Positions 13,092 through 25,886 of a stretch of DNA of 25,886 nucleotides are shown here, piece by piece. Every line of letters starts with the position of its first letter. Positions within the stretch are counted from its first letter, which is position 1. The notes under the pieces are model-generated. The model searched no databases and had not been told where the DNA came from. It was given only the letters and a program-made list of their open reading frames with translations. The stretch is from a virus. Location: the IMG/VR virus record IMGVR_UViG_3300042691_009502, positions 1 to 25,886 of that record; one strand, given 5' to 3'. Made by a program: the position numbers and the translations under genes.

Positions 13092-14239
13092 TGATATACG
13101 AAAATTTAAAAAAGAATCTCAACAATAAAAGAAAAGTTGATAACAAAGTGTTTGTACATTTTGTTAGAGGCGCATTTGTTGAAATAAAAGGAAATATTCA
13201 AAAAAATTACAAAGTTAAATTTTTTGATAATAGAACGGGGAGATTGTTATTCAGTTCTGATATATCAACAAATATGTGGACAAAATGTAATGTTGAATAT
13301 TTTGTTGAATGGCGTATTGAAATATATGAAGGTGATAAGTTATGGTGGCATCATATATACAATGCACACAACAAAAGAGTTTATGTTGCTCTAGATTCTA
13401 AAGCATTGGGTGATAGTTTAGCATGGATTCCGTATGTAGAAGAATTTGGAAAAGTGCATGGAGCAAAAATGATTGTTTCAACTTTTATGAACACTATGTT
13501 TGAAGAAAAATACCCAAACATAGAATTTGTTGTTCCCGGTGTAAGTGTTGAAAATCTTTACGCTATGTACTCTATTGGTTTATTTTACAATGAAGATAAT
13601 ACAATTAATATTTACAAAAATCCAATAGACCCAAAGAAGCAAACAATGCAAAAAATGTGTTCTGATATATTGGGATTAGATTTTAAAGAAATAAAACCAA
13701 AATTAAAAGATAGAAAAATTTCAATAGATTCAAACTACAAACAAGTTTGTATAGGAATACATGGTACAGCTCAATCTAAATTTTGGAATAATCCAACTGG
13801 TTGGCAAGAAGTTGTAAATTGGTTAAATCAAAAAGGATATGTTGTGAAACTTCTTTCAAAAGAAGGTGAAAATTATATGGGAAACCAATTACCATCTGGA
13901 ATCGTAAGACATCCAGAAGGACCGTTAGAATTGGTTATGGATGAAATGAAAAAATCAAAAGCATTCATTGGTATTGGTAGTGGATTGAGTTGGTTGAGTT
14001 GGGCATTGGACGTACCAACAGTATTAATAAGTGGATTTTCTTATAGATGGGCAGAAATGGAAGATTGTATTCGTATTGGAGCACCCACTGGAAAATGTGA
14101 AGGATGCTTTAACCGATTGAGATTGGATCCTGGTGACTGGAATTGGTGTCCAGACCATAAAGGAACTGAAAGACAATTTGAATGTACTAAATCAATTACA
14201 TCCGAAATGGTAATCAAAGAATTGGAAAAATTTCTATAA
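13091..14239 (+). CDS. TibC/BAHT-like protein O-heptosyltransferase with a four-Cys iron-finger motif (382 aa)
   Basis: The start is taken as ATG 13091, sharing TAATG with the upstream stop. A TTG three codons earlier (13082) is possible but less likely. An N-terminal beta domain (about 18-95, with FVRGAFVEIKG and YKVKFFDNRTG) precedes ALDSKALGDSLAWIPYVEEF (100-119), a hallmark of bacterial autotransporter heptosyltransferases; D108 lies in ALGD, where the catalytic Asp of TibC is expected. The C-terminal part has IGIHGTAQSKFWNNPTGWQE and GIGSGLSWLSWALDVPT, typical of GT9-like sugar-nucleotide binding. Cysteines C336, C339, C353 and C365, ending in HKGTERQFECTKSIT, match the iron-finger region. 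Known members form dodecamers and move heptose from ADP-heptose to Ser residues of autotransporter repeats. The adjacent HldE-type genes fit this role. The phage acceptor is unknown. Confidence 0.88.
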   Translation: MIYENLKKNLNNKRKVDNKVFVHFVRGAFVEIKGNIQKNYKVKFFDNRTGRLLFSSDISTNMWTKCNVEYFVEWRIEIYEGDKLWWHHIYNAHNKRVYVALDSKALGDSLAWIPYVEEFGKVHGAKMIVSTFMNTMFEEKYPNIEFVVPGVSVENLYAMYSIGLFYNEDNTINIYKNPIDPKKQTMQKMCSDILGLDFKEIKPKLKDRKISIDSNYKQVCIGIHGTAQSKFWNNPTGWQEVVNWLNQKGYVVKLLSKEGENYMGNQLPSGIVRHPEGPLELVMDEMKKSKAFIGIGSGLSWLSWALDVPTVLISGFSYRWAEMEDCIRIGAPTGKCEGCFNRLRLDPGDWNWCPDHKGTERQFECTKSITSEMVIKELEKFL

Positions 14240-14631
14240 TGAAAAAGGTTTGGGTAAACGGAACTTTTGATGTTTTACACATCGGGCATATAAAACTTTT
14301 AGAATATGCATCATCTTTTGGAACTCTAAGAGTTGGCATTGATACTGATGAAAGAGTTAGAGAAAAGAAAGGTGAATCAAGACCATACAATTCATTGGAA
14401 GATAGAATGGGATTTATGCGTAGCATTAGATTTGTTGATAGTGTTGTTGCATTTGATTCCGATGAATCTCTTATAGAACACATAAAGCAATGGAGACCTG
14501 ATATTATGGTAATTGGGGATGATTACACATATGAACAAATAATAGGAAAAGAATTTATTCCTAAGATTGAATACTTTAAAAAAGTAGAGGGTATAAGCAC
14601 TTCAAAAATATTAGGAGATGGCAAAATATAA
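14239..14631 (+). CDS. hldC: HldE C-terminal/RfaE2-type heptose-phosphate nucleotidyltransferase (130 aa)
   Basis: This single-domain cytidylyltransferase-fold protein has NGTFDVLHIGHIKLLEYA (7-24) with the HxGH motif H14-H17. VGIDTDERV and RPYNSLEDR follow, then VIGDDY and the GISTSKI motif (118-124). This pattern is that of HldE/RfaE C-terminal adenylyltransferases, which convert D-glycero-beta-D-manno-heptose 1-phosphate and ATP to ADP-heptose. TagD-type glycerol-3-phosphate cytidylyltransferases share the fold and are the main alternative. The gene starts on the TAATG that ends the heptosyltransferase gene and overlaps the kinase gene by 14 nt, so the three are translationally coupled. 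It is a stand-alone domain; in many Gram-negatives it is fused behind the kinase as HldE. Confidence 0.8.
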   Translation: MKKVWVNGTFDVLHIGHIKLLEYASSFGTLRVGIDTDERVREKKGESRPYNSLEDRMGFMRSIRFVDSVVAFDSDESLIEHIKQWRPDIMVIGDDYTYEQIIGKEFIPKIEYFKKVEGISTSKILGDGKI

Positions 14632-15364
14632 AGTATTAGTAGTTGGAGAAAAATGCACAGATATTTTTGTATATGGTACAACCAACAGAAAATCACCAGA
14701 AGGAAATGGACCTGTTTTCATACCAAATAACGAAGTTTATGGAGATGGTATGGCATTAAATACGGCTAACAATTTAGCATCAATGGGATTACAAGTTGAT
14801 GTATTTTGTGATACTGGAAATATTACAAAAACAAGATATGTTGACGAAAATACTAATGAATTATACATAAGGGTAGACGAAAATGATATAGTAGAAAAGA
14901 TAAACTTATCAGATTTACCCAAATTAGACAACTATGATGCAATAGTTATATCCGATTATTGTAAGGGATTTTTGACTGAGGAAGATATATCTTATATTTC
15001 AAAACTACATAGGTTAGTAGTTTTAGATACAAAAAAATATTTAGGAAGTTGGTGTAAGGATGTATCTTTTATAAAACTAAATAGGTTTGAGGCTCAAAAT
15101 AACCATGATATAATAATAGAAAATAAATGGTTAGATGATAAGATAATAACCACTTTAGATGGTAGCGGAGCTTGTTATAAAGGTAATGTAATAAAAACCG
15201 AAAAGGTTGAAAATGCGGATGTAAGTGGGGCTGGGGATACTTTTGTAGCGGCGTTTGTTGCAAGATACTTAGATTCTGAAAATGTAGAAGAATCTATTGA
15301 TTGGGCAAATTATTGTGCCGGTTCTGTTGTACGAAAAAAAGGAGTTTCTGTATTTGGAAACTAA
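14618..15364 (+). CDS. hldA: HldE N-terminal/RfaE1-type PfkB-family sugar kinase (248 aa)
   Basis: PfkB features are clear: GEKCTDIFVYG (10-20), a SPEGNGPVF segment (26-34) reminiscent of the ISPEAPVPV of RfaE1, NTANNLASMG (48-57), VISDYCKGFL (110-119), and the catalytic DVSGAGDTFVAAF (201-213) with D207. HldA/HldE kinases phosphorylate D-glycero-beta-D-manno-heptose 7-phosphate to the 1,7-bisphosphate. At 248 residues it is shorter than the usual 310-330, apparently through loss of part of the lid region, so substrate preference could differ; another PfkB sugar kinase is the alternative. It overlaps the nucleotidyltransferase gene by 14 nt in another frame. The isomerase (GmhA), phosphatase (GmhB) and epimerase (HldD) steps are not encoded in this window and would have to come from the host or elsewhere in the phage. 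Confidence 0.78.
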   Translation: MAKYKVLVVGEKCTDIFVYGTTNRKSPEGNGPVFIPNNEVYGDGMALNTANNLASMGLQVDVFCDTGNITKTRYVDENTNELYIRVDENDIVEKINLSDLPKLDNYDAIVISDYCKGFLTEEDISYISKLHRLVVLDTKKYLGSWCKDVSFIKLNRFEAQNNHDIIIENKWLDDKIITTLDGSGACYKGNVIKTEKVENADVSGAGDTFVAAFVARYLDSENVEESIDWANYCAGSVVRKKGVSVFGN

Positions 15365-15853: not shown

Positions 15854-18613
15854 ATGAGAGGATTAGCAAAATTTTTAGTAGAAACAATATTGGGAGAAGC
15901 GGCTAAGGTAGACAAAGTGGTTGTTGTCTATTCAGGCCGCTTTCAACCATTTCATAAGGGTCACTACGCAACGTATGACCATTTGGTTAAGAAGTTCGGA
16001 AAAGATAATGTTTATATAGGAACTTCTGATGTAACCGATTCAAAAAAATCTCCATTTAATTTTAAGGAAAAGAAAGTCATTATGACAAAAATGTTTGGTA
16101 TCCCAACAAACAAAATTGTTAATGTCCGTAATCCTTATGCACCACAAGAAATACTTAATAAATTTAATGAAGATACTACTGGTTTTATAACTGTAGTTGG
16201 TGAGAAAGATGAAGCACGTTTAGGTGGTAAATATTTCATACCATATAAAGGAAAGGTAGTAGAACCTTATTTAGAAAGAGGATATGTTTATGCAGCACCT
16301 GCACAACCCAACGCTATTAGTGGAACTGATGTTCGTTATTGGTTAAGTGCTGGTAATGAGGCTGATAGAAAGAAAGGTTTTATGAAAGCATATCCTAAGT
16401 TTGATGAGCAAGTATTTAAAATGATTACTCTAAAACTTAAATCTCTTAAAGAATATATTAACGAAGAAATAAAATTAAATGTTAAGGTTGGTGATGAAAT
16501 TCTTATGGGTAAATTTAAGAACAAAAAAGTTCTTGTTAAATCCATAGGTAAAGATGAATGGGGAATGCCAACAATTAATGGTAAGAAAGCAGTAACTTTT
16601 AGAATTCCTAAAAAAGAAAATTTAAAGGAAGCAACTGGAGGAGCCGCAGGTTTTACAGCAGGTGACGAACCAGATATGTCATTTGTAGCAGATGGGCAAA
16701 AAAGAATATTAAACAAATATAAGCCTGAAAATTGGTATAAGCAAGGTGGGTATGTCCAGTTAGAAGAACCAACAGCAGATGCTATGCGTGGTAGAGGTAA
16801 AAATAAAGATAACGAATCACAATTTAGAAAAGCTATATACAAAGTAAAAAATGTAGTTCAAAGTACACTTAATCCAGCAGATGACCCTCACACTGTAGAA
16901 GATTGGCAGCAAATTAATAGAGAAACACCTTTGGAAAAACCTAAAAGATTTTGGGAACTTCCTAAAAATCAAAAACCTCAAATAATTTCAAAAGAAGATA
17001 TAAATGAAATCATTGATGAAGTTGAACAAGAATTATTAGATGAAATGGGTTTTCCTGGCGGAGCTGGTGTTGGTCTGAGTTTACCAGGTGGATATATTAA
17101 TGGAGCACCAAATCCAAAAGATGTTAAGAAATTAAAATCTAAATTGGATAAAGATGGTAGTGAAGAATACACTAAAGTAAAAGAAGATAAGATACCTGGT
17201 GGATTGGCAAAGGGAATGTCATTATCAGATATTGCAAAACATCATAATATAAGTCCACAAACTTTAAAAAATGAATTCATCAAAGGATATGCGGTTGAAA
17301 GAGAGCATACTACTGATGTAGAAGTTGCAAAAGAAATTGCATTAGACCATTTATACGAAGACCCAAATTATTATAGTAAATTATCAAAGATTGAAACTCC
17401 TTTAAGTGAGGGTTTACTTTTAGAAGGTGGTGCGTATGGACATATGGCACATCCATTTGATATTGAAATGGGTTTAACATTTGGTGACCTTAAACAAATT
17501 GTTGTAAAAGCATTAAATGGTGATTTGGAATTAGCAAGAGAAAAAACTGATGGACAGGCATTAGCAATTAGTTGGGTGAATGGTAGATTAGTTGCGGCTC
17601 GTAACAAATCACACCTAAAGAACAAAGGAGCTGGTGCTATGACAATAGGACAGGTAGCAGATAAGTTTGCCGGTAGAGGTGGATTGACGGATGCATATAA
17701 TTACGCAATGAAAGATTTATCTGCGGCAATAGCAGCATTATCCGAACCACAACGTAAAATGATATTCAAGAGTGGAAGTTGTTTTATGAATTTGGAAGTA
17801 ATATATCCAACTTCAGTAAATGTAATTCCTTATAATCAACCACTATTAGTATTTCATGGTACATTTGAATACGATAAAGAAGGAAATATAATTGGTGAAA
17901 ATCAACAAGCAGCTAGAATATTGGCTGGTATGATTAAGCAAGTAAATGCACATGTTCAATCTAAGTACACAATACAAGGACCACCAATGCAGAAACTCCC
18001 AAAATCAGAAAATCTTTCTAAACTACAAGGAAAGTACATTTCAATGATTTCAAAACTTCAATCTGAATTTGGATTAAAAGATTCCGATGGTGTGGCTGAT
18101 TATCATCAAGCATGGTGGACTAAGTTTGTAGAAAAAGGTGCAAAAAAATTAGATACACAAGAAAAAATAGGATTGGTTAAAAGATGGGCTTTTGGAGATA
18201 AATCATTCCGTATTAATACAATACAAGACCCTAAAATAAAAGCATGGGCTGAGGGAGTTGATAAACAAGACCAACAAAAAATATCAAAACAAAACTTAAT
18301 GAAGTTTGAAGAAATATTTTTAGGTGTTGGTGCAGAAGTTCTCTCATTTATGAGTTCCGTACTTACAGCAAATCCTGAATCTGCAAAAAGACAGATGGTT
18401 GGTAGATTGCAATCAACTATACAACAAGTGAAAGCAAGTGGAGACCCTAAAAAGATTGAAAAACTTAAATTAGAATTACAAAGATTAGAAGCTTTGGGTG
18501 GATTTGAAAAAATTGTACCAAATGAGGGTATTGTTTTTGTGTATAATGGTAATACATACAAATTGACAGGAGCATTTGCGCCGTTGAATCAGATATTGGG
18601 TATATTTTTCTAA
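15854..18613 (+). CDS. Multidomain protein: NadM-like nucleotidyltransferase, DUF5661-like and nucleic-acid-ligase-like domains (919 aa)
   Basis: Residues about 20-195 form a nucleotidyltransferase with SGRFQPFHKGH (27-37) and AISGTDVRYWL (154-164), closest by eye to NadM/PPAT-type adenylyltransferases. Residues about 444-512 (GLAKGMSLSDIAKHHNIS, then EREHTTDVEVAKEIALDHL) resemble DUF5661. Residues about 545-919 resemble a covalent nucleotidyltransferase/ligase: motif I K564-TDG, FMNLEVI (644-650), LLVFHG (664-669), EGIVF (891-895) and a late Lys in TYKLTG (K903). The linker at 200-440 is low in complexity. LxE motifs followed by a small residue lie near the N-terminus (LGE15/A16), at LKE259/A260 and at LLE524/G525, close to domain borders, so prohead-protease processing is possible. 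Its N-terminal FLVETILGEA resembles LLIETHLFEG in the protease itself. Substrates are unknown. Confidence 0.72.
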   Translation: MRGLAKFLVETILGEAAKVDKVVVVYSGRFQPFHKGHYATYDHLVKKFGKDNVYIGTSDVTDSKKSPFNFKEKKVIMTKMFGIPTNKIVNVRNPYAPQEILNKFNEDTTGFITVVGEKDEARLGGKYFIPYKGKVVEPYLERGYVYAAPAQPNAISGTDVRYWLSAGNEADRKKGFMKAYPKFDEQVFKMITLKLKSLKEYINEEIKLNVKVGDEILMGKFKNKKVLVKSIGKDEWGMPTINGKKAVTFRIPKKENLKEATGGAAGFTAGDEPDMSFVADGQKRILNKYKPENWYKQGGYVQLEEPTADAMRGRGKNKDNESQFRKAIYKVKNVVQSTLNPADDPHTVEDWQQINRETPLEKPKRFWELPKNQKPQIISKEDINEIIDEVEQELLDEMGFPGGAGVGLSLPGGYINGAPNPKDVKKLKSKLDKDGSEEYTKVKEDKIPGGLAKGMSLSDIAKHHNISPQTLKNEFIKGYAVEREHTTDVEVAKEIALDHLYEDPNYYSKLSKIETPLSEGLLLEGGAYGHMAHPFDIEMGLTFGDLKQIVVKALNGDLELAREKTDGQALAISWVNGRLVAARNKSHLKNKGAGAMTIGQVADKFAGRGGLTDAYNYAMKDLSAAIAALSEPQRKMIFKSGSCFMNLEVIYPTSVNVIPYNQPLLVFHGTFEYDKEGNIIGENQQAARILAGMIKQVNAHVQSKYTIQGPPMQKLPKSENLSKLQGKYISMISKLQSEFGLKDSDGVADYHQAWWTKFVEKGAKKLDTQEKIGLVKRWAFGDKSFRINTIQDPKIKAWAEGVDKQDQQKISKQNLMKFEEIFLGVGAEVLSFMSSVLTANPESAKRQMVGRLQSTIQQVKASGDPKKIEKLKLELQRLEALGGFEKIVPNEGIVFVYNGNTYKLTGAFAPLNQILGIFF

Positions 18614-21014: not shown

Positions 21015-21452
21015 ATGATTAAATTAACTAATATCCTAAAAGAAGATGAATACATAGATAAAGCGTATTCAAAAGGTGATACTCCGGCGGATAACCCAAT
21101 TGATGACTACGATGAGCTTGATGTAGAGCAAGAAGATATGGATGATTTTATCCAATATCTTAAATCTTATCAAACATCATTAGATGAAGCAAATTGTGGT
21201 TGCGTGTACGAAGCCGAATATCAGGGTAGAGAGGTAAAGTTGGGTAAACCAATGGCAGGTGATGTAAAGAAATTTAAGGTATATGTAAAAAACCCTAAGA
21301 CTGGTAAAGTTATTAAAGTAAACTTCGGTCAGAAGGGAGTTAAAATTAAAAAGAATAACCCTGGCAGGAGAGCAAACTTTAGAGCTAGACACAATTGTGA
21401 CAATCCTGGTCCAAGAACAAAAGCAAGATATTGGTCTTGTAGAAAATGGTAA
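21015..21452 (+). CDS. DUF5872-like protein with a capsid-targeting-like N-terminus (145 aa)
   Basis: The C-terminal part (about 68-145) matches what I recall of DUF5872: GREVKLGKPMAG, KKFKVYVKNPKTGKVIKVNF, and the Cys-containing end FRARHNCDNPGPRTKARYW. It is strongly basic, suggesting nucleic-acid contact. The N-terminus MIKLTNILKE resembles the T4 internal-protein capsid-targeting peptide (MKTYQEFIAE), followed by an acidic stretch (30-45). SLDE58/A59 offers an LxE cleavage site just before the mature domain. Together these suggest a packaged internal head protein trimmed by the prohead protease. It sits between terminase and portal, where T4 has tail sheath and tube genes. The activity is unknown. 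Family call moderate; packaging role inferred. Confidence 0.72.
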   Translation: MIKLTNILKEDEYIDKAYSKGDTPADNPIDDYDELDVEQEDMDDFIQYLKSYQTSLDEANCGCVYEAEYQGREVKLGKPMAGDVKKFKVYVKNPKTGKVIKVNFGQKGVKIKKNNPGRRANFRARHNCDNPGPRTKARYWSCRKW

Positions 21453-21460
21453 AATAAATT

Positions 21461-23236
21461 ATGGCAGAACAATTCCAAGACGATAGAAGTTTTTTTGGGA
21501 GACTTAAAAAACTATTTTCAACAAACGCAATCGTTACCGTTGATAAAGATGGTAAGCGTAGAGTAGTTGATGTTGAAGATAGACAAATGAATACTAACTT
21601 TGTTAATCTAAGAGATAGATACACAAAGCTCCAAAGGTCTTATTTCGAAACACATCAGGGTGCACAATCAATGGCATACCATCAAGTTCGTAGAGAACTT
21701 TTTAGAGATTATGATGCTATGGATATGGACCCAATTATAGGTTCAGCATTAGACATATATGCAGATGAATCCACAACGAAGAACGAATATGGTGATGTTC
21801 TTCAAATCAAATCAACAAATGAGAATGTAAGAGAAATGCTTCACAACTTATTCTATGATATAATGAATGTGGAGTTTAACCTATGGCCTTGGATTAGAAA
21901 CTTAGTAAAATATGGTGATGCTTTCTTAGCATTAGAGATTATGCCTGGTAAAGGTATCATTAACGTAGCACCACATTCAACCTATAACGTAGAAAGATTA
22001 GAAGGTACTGACCCAAACAATCCTGATTATGTTAAGTATAAGGTAGAATTGGATAGATTTGGTAAGAAGGAGTATGAGCAATACGAAATGGCTCACTTCC
22101 GTATGTTATCAGATACTAACTTCCTTCCTTATGGTAAATCAATGATTGAAGGTGCTAGAAGAATTTGGAAACAATTATCTCTTATGGAAGATGCGATGTT
22201 AATCCATCGTATTATGAGAGCACCTGAAAAGAGAGTATTCAAAATAGACATAGGTAACATCCCACCACAAGAAGTGGATAACTATATGCAGAAGATTATT
22301 AACAAAATGAAGAAAACTCCATTTGTTGATAAAAATACTGGTGATTACAACTTAAAATACAACATCCAAAATCTTACTGAAGACTTTTTCTTACCAGTTC
22401 GTGGTAGTGATAGTGGTACTAATATTGAAAACCTACAAGGTTTAGAATATGCAGCAATTGAGGATATTGATTATTTAAAAAATAAATTATTTGCAGCTCT
22501 AAGAGTTCCAAAGGCTTACTTATCATATGATGAGAATGTTAATGGTAAAGCTACATTGGCTGCAGAAGATGTTCGTTTTGCAAGAACCATTGAAAGAATC
22601 CAACGTACAGTTGTTAGTGAATTAGCAAAGATTGCAGTAGTTCACTTAGCGGCAAATGGTATTGAGGATTCAGAAATGACAAACTTTGAATTAACTTTGA
22701 CAAACGCTTCTACAATTTATGAGCAAGAAAAGGTTAATTTGTGGTCTGAAAAGGTTAGATTAGCATCGGATGTTAAAGCACTTAATATGCTATCATCCGA
22801 TTGGGCTTATCATAATGTATTTGGATTATCACAGGATGAGATAGATATCGAGAGAGCTAAAGTAATCTTAGACCTTAAAGATAGATTCAGACATACATCT
22901 ATTGAACAACAAGGACAGGACCCAGCTAATCCACCACAACAACAAAATGTTGAGGAAGAAATTCAAAAATTAAAAACTGAAATAGAATTGAATAGGAGTG
23001 TTGGTAGACCGAGAGAAGGAAACACTTATGGTAAAGATAAGCATCCATATGGTAGAGACCCATTGGGAGATGCAGAAAATCATAAGGAAAGAAAGAGAGA
23101 TGATAGAACTTTAAACACAAACGCTAAAAAATTGGCACGAGAATATATAAATGGGATTTCATCAAAAAAGAAGGTTTTAAACGAAAAATCGGGTATGCTC
23201 GATGAGAAAAACCTGTTGGATGATACTAAAATTTAA
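21461..23236 (+). CDS. 20: Portal protein, T4 gp20-like (591 aa)
   Basis: The portal is the dodecameric head-vertex ring through which DNA enters and leaves, and it nucleates prohead assembly. The conserved N-terminal region MAYHQVRRELFRDYDAMDMD and the following PIIGSALDIYADESTTKNEY (71-100) are characteristic of gp20-like portals, as are NVREMLHNLFYDIM, a central YGKSMIEGARRIWKQLSLME segment and LRVPKAYLSYDENVNGKATL. At 591 residues it is longer than T4 gp20 (524). The extra length is a charged, probably disordered C-terminus from about residue 485, which ends with LNEKSG and LDEKN motifs that might be trimmed. It follows the DUF5872 gene by 8 nt. A 66-bp gap with a candidate promoter separates it from the core genes. 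Confidence 0.94.
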   Translation: MAEQFQDDRSFFGRLKKLFSTNAIVTVDKDGKRRVVDVEDRQMNTNFVNLRDRYTKLQRSYFETHQGAQSMAYHQVRRELFRDYDAMDMDPIIGSALDIYADESTTKNEYGDVLQIKSTNENVREMLHNLFYDIMNVEFNLWPWIRNLVKYGDAFLALEIMPGKGIINVAPHSTYNVERLEGTDPNNPDYVKYKVELDRFGKKEYEQYEMAHFRMLSDTNFLPYGKSMIEGARRIWKQLSLMEDAMLIHRIMRAPEKRVFKIDIGNIPPQEVDNYMQKIINKMKKTPFVDKNTGDYNLKYNIQNLTEDFFLPVRGSDSGTNIENLQGLEYAAIEDIDYLKNKLFAALRVPKAYLSYDENVNGKATLAAEDVRFARTIERIQRTVVSELAKIAVVHLAANGIEDSEMTNFELTLTNASTIYEQEKVNLWSEKVRLASDVKALNMLSSDWAYHNVFGLSQDEIDIERAKVILDLKDRFRHTSIEQQGQDPANPPQQQNVEEEIQKLKTEIELNRSVGRPREGNTYGKDKHPYGRDPLGDAENHKERKRDDRTLNTNAKKLAREYINGISSKKKVLNEKSGMLDEKNLLDDTKI

Positions 23237-24730: not shown

Positions 24731-25402
24731 ATGCCAGCAGTATCAAAAGCACAGCAAAAATTTATGGGAATGGTTCATGCAGTACAAAAAGGAGACATGG
24801 AAGCACCATCTAAAGAAGTTGAAAAAGCTGCAGATTCAATGTCGAAAAAAGATGCTAAAGATTTTGCATCAACTAAACACAAAGGACTACCTATGCACAA
24901 AGAAACTATATCAAAAGAAAGATTAAAAGAATTGGTAAGAGAAGTAATGAAAGAAGAATCTGAATATCAGGCTTTTTTCAAAAAGGCTTTAGAAAAAGCT
25001 GGTAAAGGAATCAATGATATGTCTGATGAAGAAAAGAAAGAATTCTTTAATAAGATTGATTCTGCATGGAATAACAAAGGTGAAAAGAATGAAGACCTTA
25101 AAGGTGACCAGCATAAGTTAGATGTAGATGGTGATGGTGATATTGAAGGTGATGATTTGGCAGATTTGAGAGCTGGTAAAACAAATGAAGATATCTCAAC
25201 TGAATTACCAAAAGCTCAAATTCCATCAAGTGTTAAGCAAAGATTAGGTATTGCAATAGATAAGATTAAAGATGCAAAGCTAAATAATGTTCAAAAACTT
25301 CAATTAATTGCTCAAGTTGTAGATGCAATTGGTGTTGACAAAAACCAATTGGCTATGATGGCTAGTAAGATTAGAAGTAAAATGGAATCAACAAAGAAAT
25401 AA
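24731..25402 (+). CDS. DUF3008-like protein with an EF-hand calcium-binding loop (223 aa)
   Basis: The N-terminus (MPAVSKAQQKFMGMVHAVQK, then KDFASTKHKGLP) matches DUF3008 as I know it. The middle has a helical ERLKELVREVMKEESEYQAF segment and a SDEEKKEFFNKIDSAW stretch. Residues 131-142 form a canonical 12-residue EF-hand loop, with Asp at positions 1, 3, 5 and 12, Gly at 6 and Ile at 8. The C-terminal 60 residues are helical. It begins 1 nt after the previous stop and ends 1 nt before the protease start, so it belongs to the head-assembly operon, where T4 has core genes. A calcium-responsive scaffold or internal protein is a reasonable inference. Confidence 0.75.
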   Translation: MPAVSKAQQKFMGMVHAVQKGDMEAPSKEVEKAADSMSKKDAKDFASTKHKGLPMHKETISKERLKELVREVMKEESEYQAFFKKALEKAGKGINDMSDEEKKEFFNKIDSAWNNKGEKNEDLKGDQHKLDVDGDGDIEGDDLADLRAGKTNEDISTELPKAQIPSSVKQRLGIAIDKIKDAKLNNVQKLQLIAQVVDAIGVDKNQLAMMASKIRSKMESTKK

Positions 25403-25403
25403 T

Positions 25404-25886
25404 ATGAAATCACTTTTAATTGAAACACACCTATTTGAAGGTAAAATAAAAGAAGATGATGGTGGTAGAACCTTGGTAAAAGGTGTTCTTCAAAGAGCTG
25501 GTGCGGAAAACCAAAATGGTAGAGTATATCCAAAACCAATTTTAGAAAGAGAAGCTAAAAAATATTTAACATTCATCAAAGAGCGTAGAGCTTTAGGTGA
25601 GTTAGACCACCCAGATTCAACTGTTATCAATTTAAAGAACGTTTCCCACAATATCAGAGAAATTTGGTGGGAAGGTGATGACCTTTGTGGTACTGTAGAA
25701 ATCTTAGGTACTCCATCTGGTAATATCTTAAAAGAGTTATTAAAAGCTGGTATCCTATTAGGTATTTCATCAAGAGGTATGGGTTCAACCAGACCTATGA
25801 GCGGAAACAAAGTAGAGGTACAAGAAGATTTTGAATTGATTGGTTGGGATTTTGTTTCTAACCCATCTACACATGGTGCATTTATG
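25404..25886 (+). CDS. 21: Prohead core protease, T4 gp21-like (3' truncated by the window edge, 161 aa visible)
   Basis: The frame runs from ATG 25404 to the window end without a stop. GVLQRAGAENQNGRVYPKPI (27-46) and ALGELDHPDS (63-72, H69 the likely catalytic His) are typical of phage prohead proteases. So are GTVEILGTPSGNILKELL and LLGISSRGMGS (118-128), with the likely nucleophile S122 or S123. In T4 this protease assembles in the prohead core and, on activation, cuts scaffold, capsid and internal proteins after LxE/IxE. Its own N-terminus MKSLLIETHLFEGKIKED carries such sites (LIE7, LFE12/G13), fitting self-removal. Scaffold (gp22-like) and major capsid (gp23-like) genes should follow outside the window. 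Confidence 0.92.
   Translation, partial: MKSLLIETHLFEGKIKEDDGGRTLVKGVLQRAGAENQNGRVYPKPILEREAKKYLTFIKERRALGELDHPDSTVINLKNVSHNIREIWWEGDDLCGTVEILGTPSGNILKELLKAGILLGISSRGMGSTRPMSGNKVEVQEDFELIGWDFVSNPSTHGAFM

Follow-up and report, generated by a model that had tools for sequence, protein, structure and literature searches.

A 919-residue candidate cargo polyprotein with conserved glutamate sites at its module borders in the head gene cluster of a T4-like phage

The internal proteins of phage T4 are directed into the head by propeptides of 10-19 residues, and its head protease gp21 cuts after L/I-x-E (PMC9026906). Several glutamyl cuts per protein, made by a gp21 relative, are described for head proteins of the giant phages SPN3US and phiKZ, where the extra cuts remove propeptides (PMC10052503, PMC9026906). 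Polyvalent proteins, as presented by Iyer et al. 2017 (PMC5512222), are multi-domain polypeptides thought to be packaged and injected, for which domain release has been proposed and ascribed to an embedded metallopeptidase domain. Cyanophages such as S-SM2, S-SM1 and S-SCSM1 harbor the T4-GC 119 proteins encoded upstream of gp17 as well as virion NMNATs.

Here we analyze an uncultivated virus record of 25,886 bp, referred to as a whole as the window, which stems from a water-borne bacterial virus with a T4-like head cluster. Like T4 IPI-IPIII and Alt, its 919-residue protein shows a short propeptide-like start ending in L/I-x-E, a gp21-type protease in the head neighbourhood and an enzyme cargo; unlike those single products, it chains several enzymes, each joint bearing a candidate site (PMC9026906). 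It carries at least two functional domains in one polypeptide, as polyvalent proteins do, but no peptidase family is found among its Pfam matches, and its sites fit a separate head protease. In contrast to the SPN3US and phiKZ head proteins, cuts in the window protein would separate enzymes. The cyanophage T4-GC 119 proteins and virion NMNATs share similar gene position, modules and junction motif with it, whereas T4-GC 119 proteins show other module sets and those inspected have no N-terminal propeptide. The window protein combines two known kinds, the targeted internal proteins of T4 and the polyvalent injected proteins, and in the open-licence PMC literature on phage polyproteins and cyanophage virion proteolysis no description of a multi-enzyme phage cargo cut by a head protease was found. 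The evidence presented below makes it a probable cargo polyprotein of the head, with the gp21-type protease as the likeliest to cut it, and its pieces would be injected; we infer packaging, cutting, injection and a role in defence alike.

Head gene neighbourhood and module architecture

The genes relevant to the argument, all on the plus strand, are the following (a slash in a motif marks the candidate cut).

15854..18613, plus strand: ORF of the candidate cargo polyprotein, 919 aa
19352..20953, plus strand: terminase large subunit, second gene downstream of the polyprotein ORF
21015..21452, plus strand: second candidate cargo protein, 145 aa, start MIKLTNILKE/D, a propeptide type as in the relatives' separate kinase genes
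21461..23236, plus strand: T4-type portal protein (PF07230, E 1.9e-69)
25404..25886, plus strand: head maturation protease of gp21 type, truncated where the window ends, with its own N-terminal HLFE/G (PHROG 207, E 6.7e-48)

The PHROG 207 match covers the 161 protease residues present. In the capsid protein of relatives the maturation motif reads [ILV]xE, with Glu in 80/80 and A or S following in 69/80, the site being placed by position and not by an observed cut. Given this motif and the gp21 specificity, the module borders described below fit the phages' own protease.

Three other stretches of the window deserve mention. The ORF at 21015-21452 contains more xxE junctions and has a C-terminal module in common with HTVC008M AGE60465; judged by these features, it is probably a second cargo protein. 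The ORF at 24731-25402, whose N-terminus resembles that of S-SCSM1_93 (labelled virion protein) and which matches PF11450 (DUF3008, E 2.6e-6), is possibly another packaged protein. At 14239-15364 two adjoining ORFs match CTP_transf_like (PF01467, 1.8e-16) and PfkB (5.1e-16), next to glycosyltransferase-like ORFs; we take the pair to resemble the two halves of an HldE-type ADP-heptose pathway enzyme.

Within the 919-residue protein the following modules can be delimited.

15854..15898, plus strand: capsid-targeting-like N-terminal propeptide, residues 1-15, end ILGE/A (conserved E15, gp21 motif, propeptide length)
15899..16465, plus strand: NadM-like NMN adenylyltransferase module, residues 16-204, end INE/E (PF01467, PDB matches, E204)
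16466..16630, plus strand: small beta module (IKLNVKVGD...), residues 205-259, end LKE/A (junction Glu in 18/18 non-redundant contexts, E259 in 23/23)
16631..17185, plus strand: exchangeable linker and spacer (GGAGVGLSLPGGYINGAP...), residues 260-444, end VKE/D (swapped or absent in homologues, low pLDDT at 254-449)
17186..17425, plus strand: DUF5661 module and tail with the double site LSE/GLLLE/GG, residues 445-524 (PF18905, E519 and E524)
17426..18610, plus strand: RNA-ligase-like nucleotidyltransferase module, residues 525-919 (EKTDG motif, weak structure matches, PF09414 in relatives)

The first-pass annotation had recognized NadM-like, DUF5661-like and ligase-like domains in this one protein; Pfam and PDB matches agree on the first two, and weak profile and fold matches lean towards the third. 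PF01467 (CTP_transf_like) matches residues 25-161 (Pfam E 1.4e-7), residues 23-87 match PDB NMN adenylyltransferases including 2qjt and 1ej2, and the domain displays GRFQPFHxGH at residues 28-37 and ISGTxxR at residues 155-161, which we take to be the motifs of NadM-type NMN adenylyltransferases. DUF5661 (PF18905) lies at residues 459-514 (Pfam E 4.6e-11). For the C-terminal domain alone a convincing Pfam match was not found, and when its profile was run against PDB sequences, the matches were at chance level only; in a diverse 32-member alignment of the domain, 17/32 members weakly match PF09414 RNA_ligase (best E 0.0036). Its EKTDG sequence (residues 563-567) reads E-K-x-D-G in all of four divergent members, and the E, K, D and G are equally invariant among the 31 ligase regions of alignment A4, all below 80% identity; the lysine motif KxDG is presumably the mark of the RNA ligase and covalent nucleotidyltransferase superfamily. 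The AF2 model of the domain (mean pLDDT 78.5) finds mostly RNA, tRNA and DNA ligases as top structural matches, all of them weak (best Foldseek E 0.062; VIA Z 5-6.7). We name the domain RNA-ligase-like and do not regard it as a proven ligase.

Conservation of the candidate cutting sites

The earlier reading had placed L-x-E followed by A or G at residues 15, 259 and 524, near domain borders; all three are there, and a fourth at 519 (LSE/G) had been missed. Such L.E[AG] sites occur four times in the protein against 0.81 in shuffles (P=0.0072), whereas the looser [LI].E (14 against 9.4, P=0.07) and [LI].E[AGS] (4 against 1.9, P=0.12) show a weak excess, so that whole-protein motif counts were set aside as a decisive argument. 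Further border sites are INE/E at E204 and VKE/D at E444. Since the excess in one protein is modest, the claim is carried by conservation and not by the single sequence.

Conservation was followed in 55 complete ORFs, 33 of them distinct with the window's own counted in, drawn from 81 loci; apart from L022, ORFs truncated at a contig end were left out, as were those shorter than 700 aa, and 31 were aligned. E15 and E524 are found in 31/31, E259 in 23/23 where the residue is present, and E204, E444 and E519 are likewise invariant in all 31 aligned relatives. The proposed sites are conserved, though in the form [LIVMF]xE and not as L-x-E followed by A or G; at the second site the A or G does not hold. 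Site 1 reads [LI]xE[AGS] in 32/33 distinct complete homologues (x being G, L, D or E), with A next in 32/33 and one N-terminus reading LLE/K. At site 2 the Glu is followed by A, T, S, G, I or V, the module being absent in 8/33; at site 3 x varies and GG comes next in 33/33. The DUF5661-ligase linker holds long insertions in relatives and its neighbouring positions are variable; over residues 500-524, E519 and E524 are the sole unchanged residues ahead of the GG that starts the ligase module. In two contigs (L039 and L067) the cargo gene is split into two ORFs, by sequencing error or a true split.

Whole-protein AF2 with the 31 close relatives was poor (mean pLDDT 43.8) and was used solely to locate low-confidence stretches, i.e. 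1-16, 254-449 and 512-541, the ligase-domain AF2 model giving 512-534. The expectation that the sites are exposed agrees with the position of 15, 259 and 524, and also of 444 and 519, in such stretches; 204, a site outside the original list, lies in a predicted helix. The likeness of the first 16 residues to the N-terminus of the phage's own protease ([FL]L[VI]ETxLxE[AG]), also remarked on earlier, is visible in both sequences, and a 15-residue propeptide with ILGE/A falls within the T4 capsid-targeting definition (10-19 residues, L/I-x-E end).

Glutamate at the borders of exchangeable modules

Relatives of the ligase domain in environmental phage contigs are mosaic proteins, some 650-1600 aa long, built in differing order from NadM, P-loop kinase (AAA_33/Zeta_toxin-like), beta, KKGQ, AVRG, DDGP and ligase modules. 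When module starts are aligned, the sequence upstream is unrelated save for one Glu column. In non-redundant contexts, merged in this and the second set when at least 9/14 upstream residues were alike, Glu precedes the beta (18/18), kinase (13/13), AVRG (4/4) and ligase (41/50) modules at fixed columns picked after inspecting the sequences, and the KKGQ (9/10), DDGP (13/18) and CWKGY (9/14) modules at the best column taken from the data. Two residues before it, L, I, V, M or F is found in all those contexts except 2/18 of the beta module, which shows the full [LIVMF]xE in 16/18, the background of this motif being 1.7% per position. First-set modules with at most four contexts, AVRG excepted, remain outside the argument (KDACY 2/4, AAWT 2/4, RDWF 0/3, CxxG 1/2, VRxP 3/3, KGRKS 1/1), and most of these small-count modules were re-tested in a second set of 80 further loci, retrieved with a cyanophage protein as query. 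There, with the best column picked from the data for every module, Glu precedes VRxPxxTG in 10/10, NKYKKSIDC in 3/3, GCMHN in 4/4, KKGQ in 3/4, CWKGY in 21/27 and RDWF in 9/12, the cyanophage modules AAWT (9/14), KDACY (5/16) and CxxGxYYCYT (2/5) being weaker.

At the ligase border of 115 relatives the residue is Glu in 86, Met in 28 and Cys in one, five of the 86 being out of register (scored G in the count) and Glu on direct reading. In the Met clade LLLM replaces LLxE ahead of the ligase, as in the KELLLM before GGAYGHM of L108, L113, L163 and other loci; L108 and L163 retain a propeptide-like N-terminus and L113 an xxE at its kinase border. LR756508 has no LxE/GG at the ligase start. The idea of a full propeptide copy before every module was dropped, as 2/89 ligase-border windows score at least 4 against 24/1233 elsewhere in a scan whose register was imperfect and whose profile ended at the first xxE; by eye such copies are seen in single loci only (L219, L222, L229, L231).

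The same modules are also found as separate genes. A short kinase ORF is present in ten loci, and in seven of these the kinase is encoded by a gene of its own, with a MIKLxxILxE/G-type start, upstream of the NadM-ligase gene (one of these with a V codon instead of ATG as start, another with a few residues ahead of the motif), while elsewhere the kinase lies inside the polyprotein with xxE/G at its border. In a 462-kb uncultured phage the ligase is a single protein with an N-terminal leader ending in LILE/GG (...NLILE/GG), and Methylophilales phage Melnitz and Pelagibacter phage HTVC008M have single kinase modules with a similar short leader ending in xxE/G. That modules are fused or separate with the Glu kept is expected of a cleavable border. 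In a 274-kb relative, L.E[AG] within residues 1-20 occurs in 14/319 proteins, with 5.9 expected. Another modular protein is encoded between protease and capsid gene at L099:14529-15443 (G001 234529-235443, minus strand), with borders IKE/DSPCWKGY and VVNE/AGLYGG and modules common to cyanophage and Flavobacterium phage proteins.

Virion data come from cyanophages. An NMNAT-like protein or cytidylyltransferase has been detected in virions of S-SM1 (PMC3037559), S-CREM2 (PMC10665884) and S-SCSM1 (PMC9602691), and the same is told of S-CBWM1 and S-SZBM1 in these papers; the authors of two of the proteomes consider carry-over of abundant proteins possible (PMC10665884, PMC9602691). The S-SCSM1 NMNAT has a propeptide-like N-terminal stretch ending in LKE/A, and the record of this phage labels as "virion protein" a modular protein encoded a short way ahead of the terminase, a label that would reflect mass spectrometry, since 45 S-SCSM1 proteins are reported as detected (PMC9602691). 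In S-SM2, Bellamy and S-SCSM1 the modular proteins have no N-terminal propeptide and open directly with a module. In S-SM2 and Bellamy (L315:2067-4618 and L314:2340-4348) the large modular ORF shares its first 4 bases with a small propeptide-bearing ORF that starts MKTLKQFLKE.. or MKSFKQFQE.., and the missing targeting signal could come from coupling or frameshifting at this overlap. For one such cyanophage modular protein, matches are present in 544 of the 50,697 phage records.

Proposed route of the cargo, competing explanations and biological meaning

Taken together, the idea that the protein is packaged, cut by gp21 and injected as separate enzymes holds at the sequence level and appears broader than originally put, i.e. 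as a modular cargo polyprotein with border signals. In the proposed route the first 15 residues would act as a T4-like capsid-targeting propeptide that brings the protein into the core of the prohead. While the head matures, its gp21-type protease would cut after [LIVMF]xE, both directly after the propeptide (E15) and between modules (E204, E259, E444 and E519/E524). The finished head would then contain as separate small proteins the NMN adenylyltransferase, the beta module, the DUF5661 module and the RNA-ligase-like enzyme. They would pass into the cell together with the DNA and be active immediately, most plausibly in NAD+ restoration and RNA repair against host defence.

The main competitor, which we regard as unlikely, is that only the propeptide is cut, the rest being injected as one multi-domain polyvalent protein whose internal xxE are scars of fused propeptide proteins. 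Separate propeptide-bearing versions of the modules do exist, so that fusion would bring the motif inside; one clade has no ligase-border Glu, and for polyvalent injected proteins packaging in unprocessed form is known (PMC5512222). Scars should decay, however, whereas E519 and E524 are kept in 31/31 amid variable positions and large insertions and E444 in 31/31 although the adjoining T440-K443 vary, and it is the Glu and the hydrophobic P3 alone that persist, not the remainder of the propeptide.

Less probable still is an ordinary intracellular late enzyme of NAD+ synthesis and RNA repair, not a virion protein, with xxE as a linker preference: the enzyme domains and the possible carry-over in two cyanophage virion proteomes would suit it, but the gene lies in the head cluster adjoining terminase and portal, its N-terminus is targeting-like, and the Glu spike before modules sits in a single column, with no diffuse bias. 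An origin of the LxE sites by chance, the motif being short, as the mild rise of [LI].E in the 919-residue protein might suggest, can practically be dismissed in view of site conservation and module-border statistics.

Concerning function, phage countering of NAD+ loss and of RNA cleavage by host defence are both themes of PMC9503650, and an injected NMN adenylyltransferase with an RNA-ligase-like enzyme would fit NAD+ and RNA repair against such defence. The same source states that phages with NadM always have NadV as well; a search of six records, all of which may be fragments, gave no NadV in any of them. The 274-kb NadM-bearing phage record (G001, L088-L101) is without a NadV match, contrary to that statement.

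Returning to the cargo polyprotein, we lean, with less confidence than for the window protein itself, towards a wider reading in which the T4-like phages living in seas and lakes, among them cyanophages, pelagiphages, phages of methylotrophs, of Flavobacterium and of Agrobacterium and many uncultured ones, would share an exchangeable library of injected modules, each with its own N-terminal [LIVMF]xE head-protease signal, and thus usable as a separate propeptide-bearing gene or within a polyprotein cut in the maturing head. If true, one gene would load many different enzymes into a head, in a phage analogue of the polyproteins of eukaryotic viruses that is processed inside the capsid. The [LIVMF]xE before a module would then be a sequence rule predicting injected proteins, and true N-termini, among hypothetical genes, and the old question of which proteins T4-like phages inject would become testable from existing virion mass-spectrometry data.
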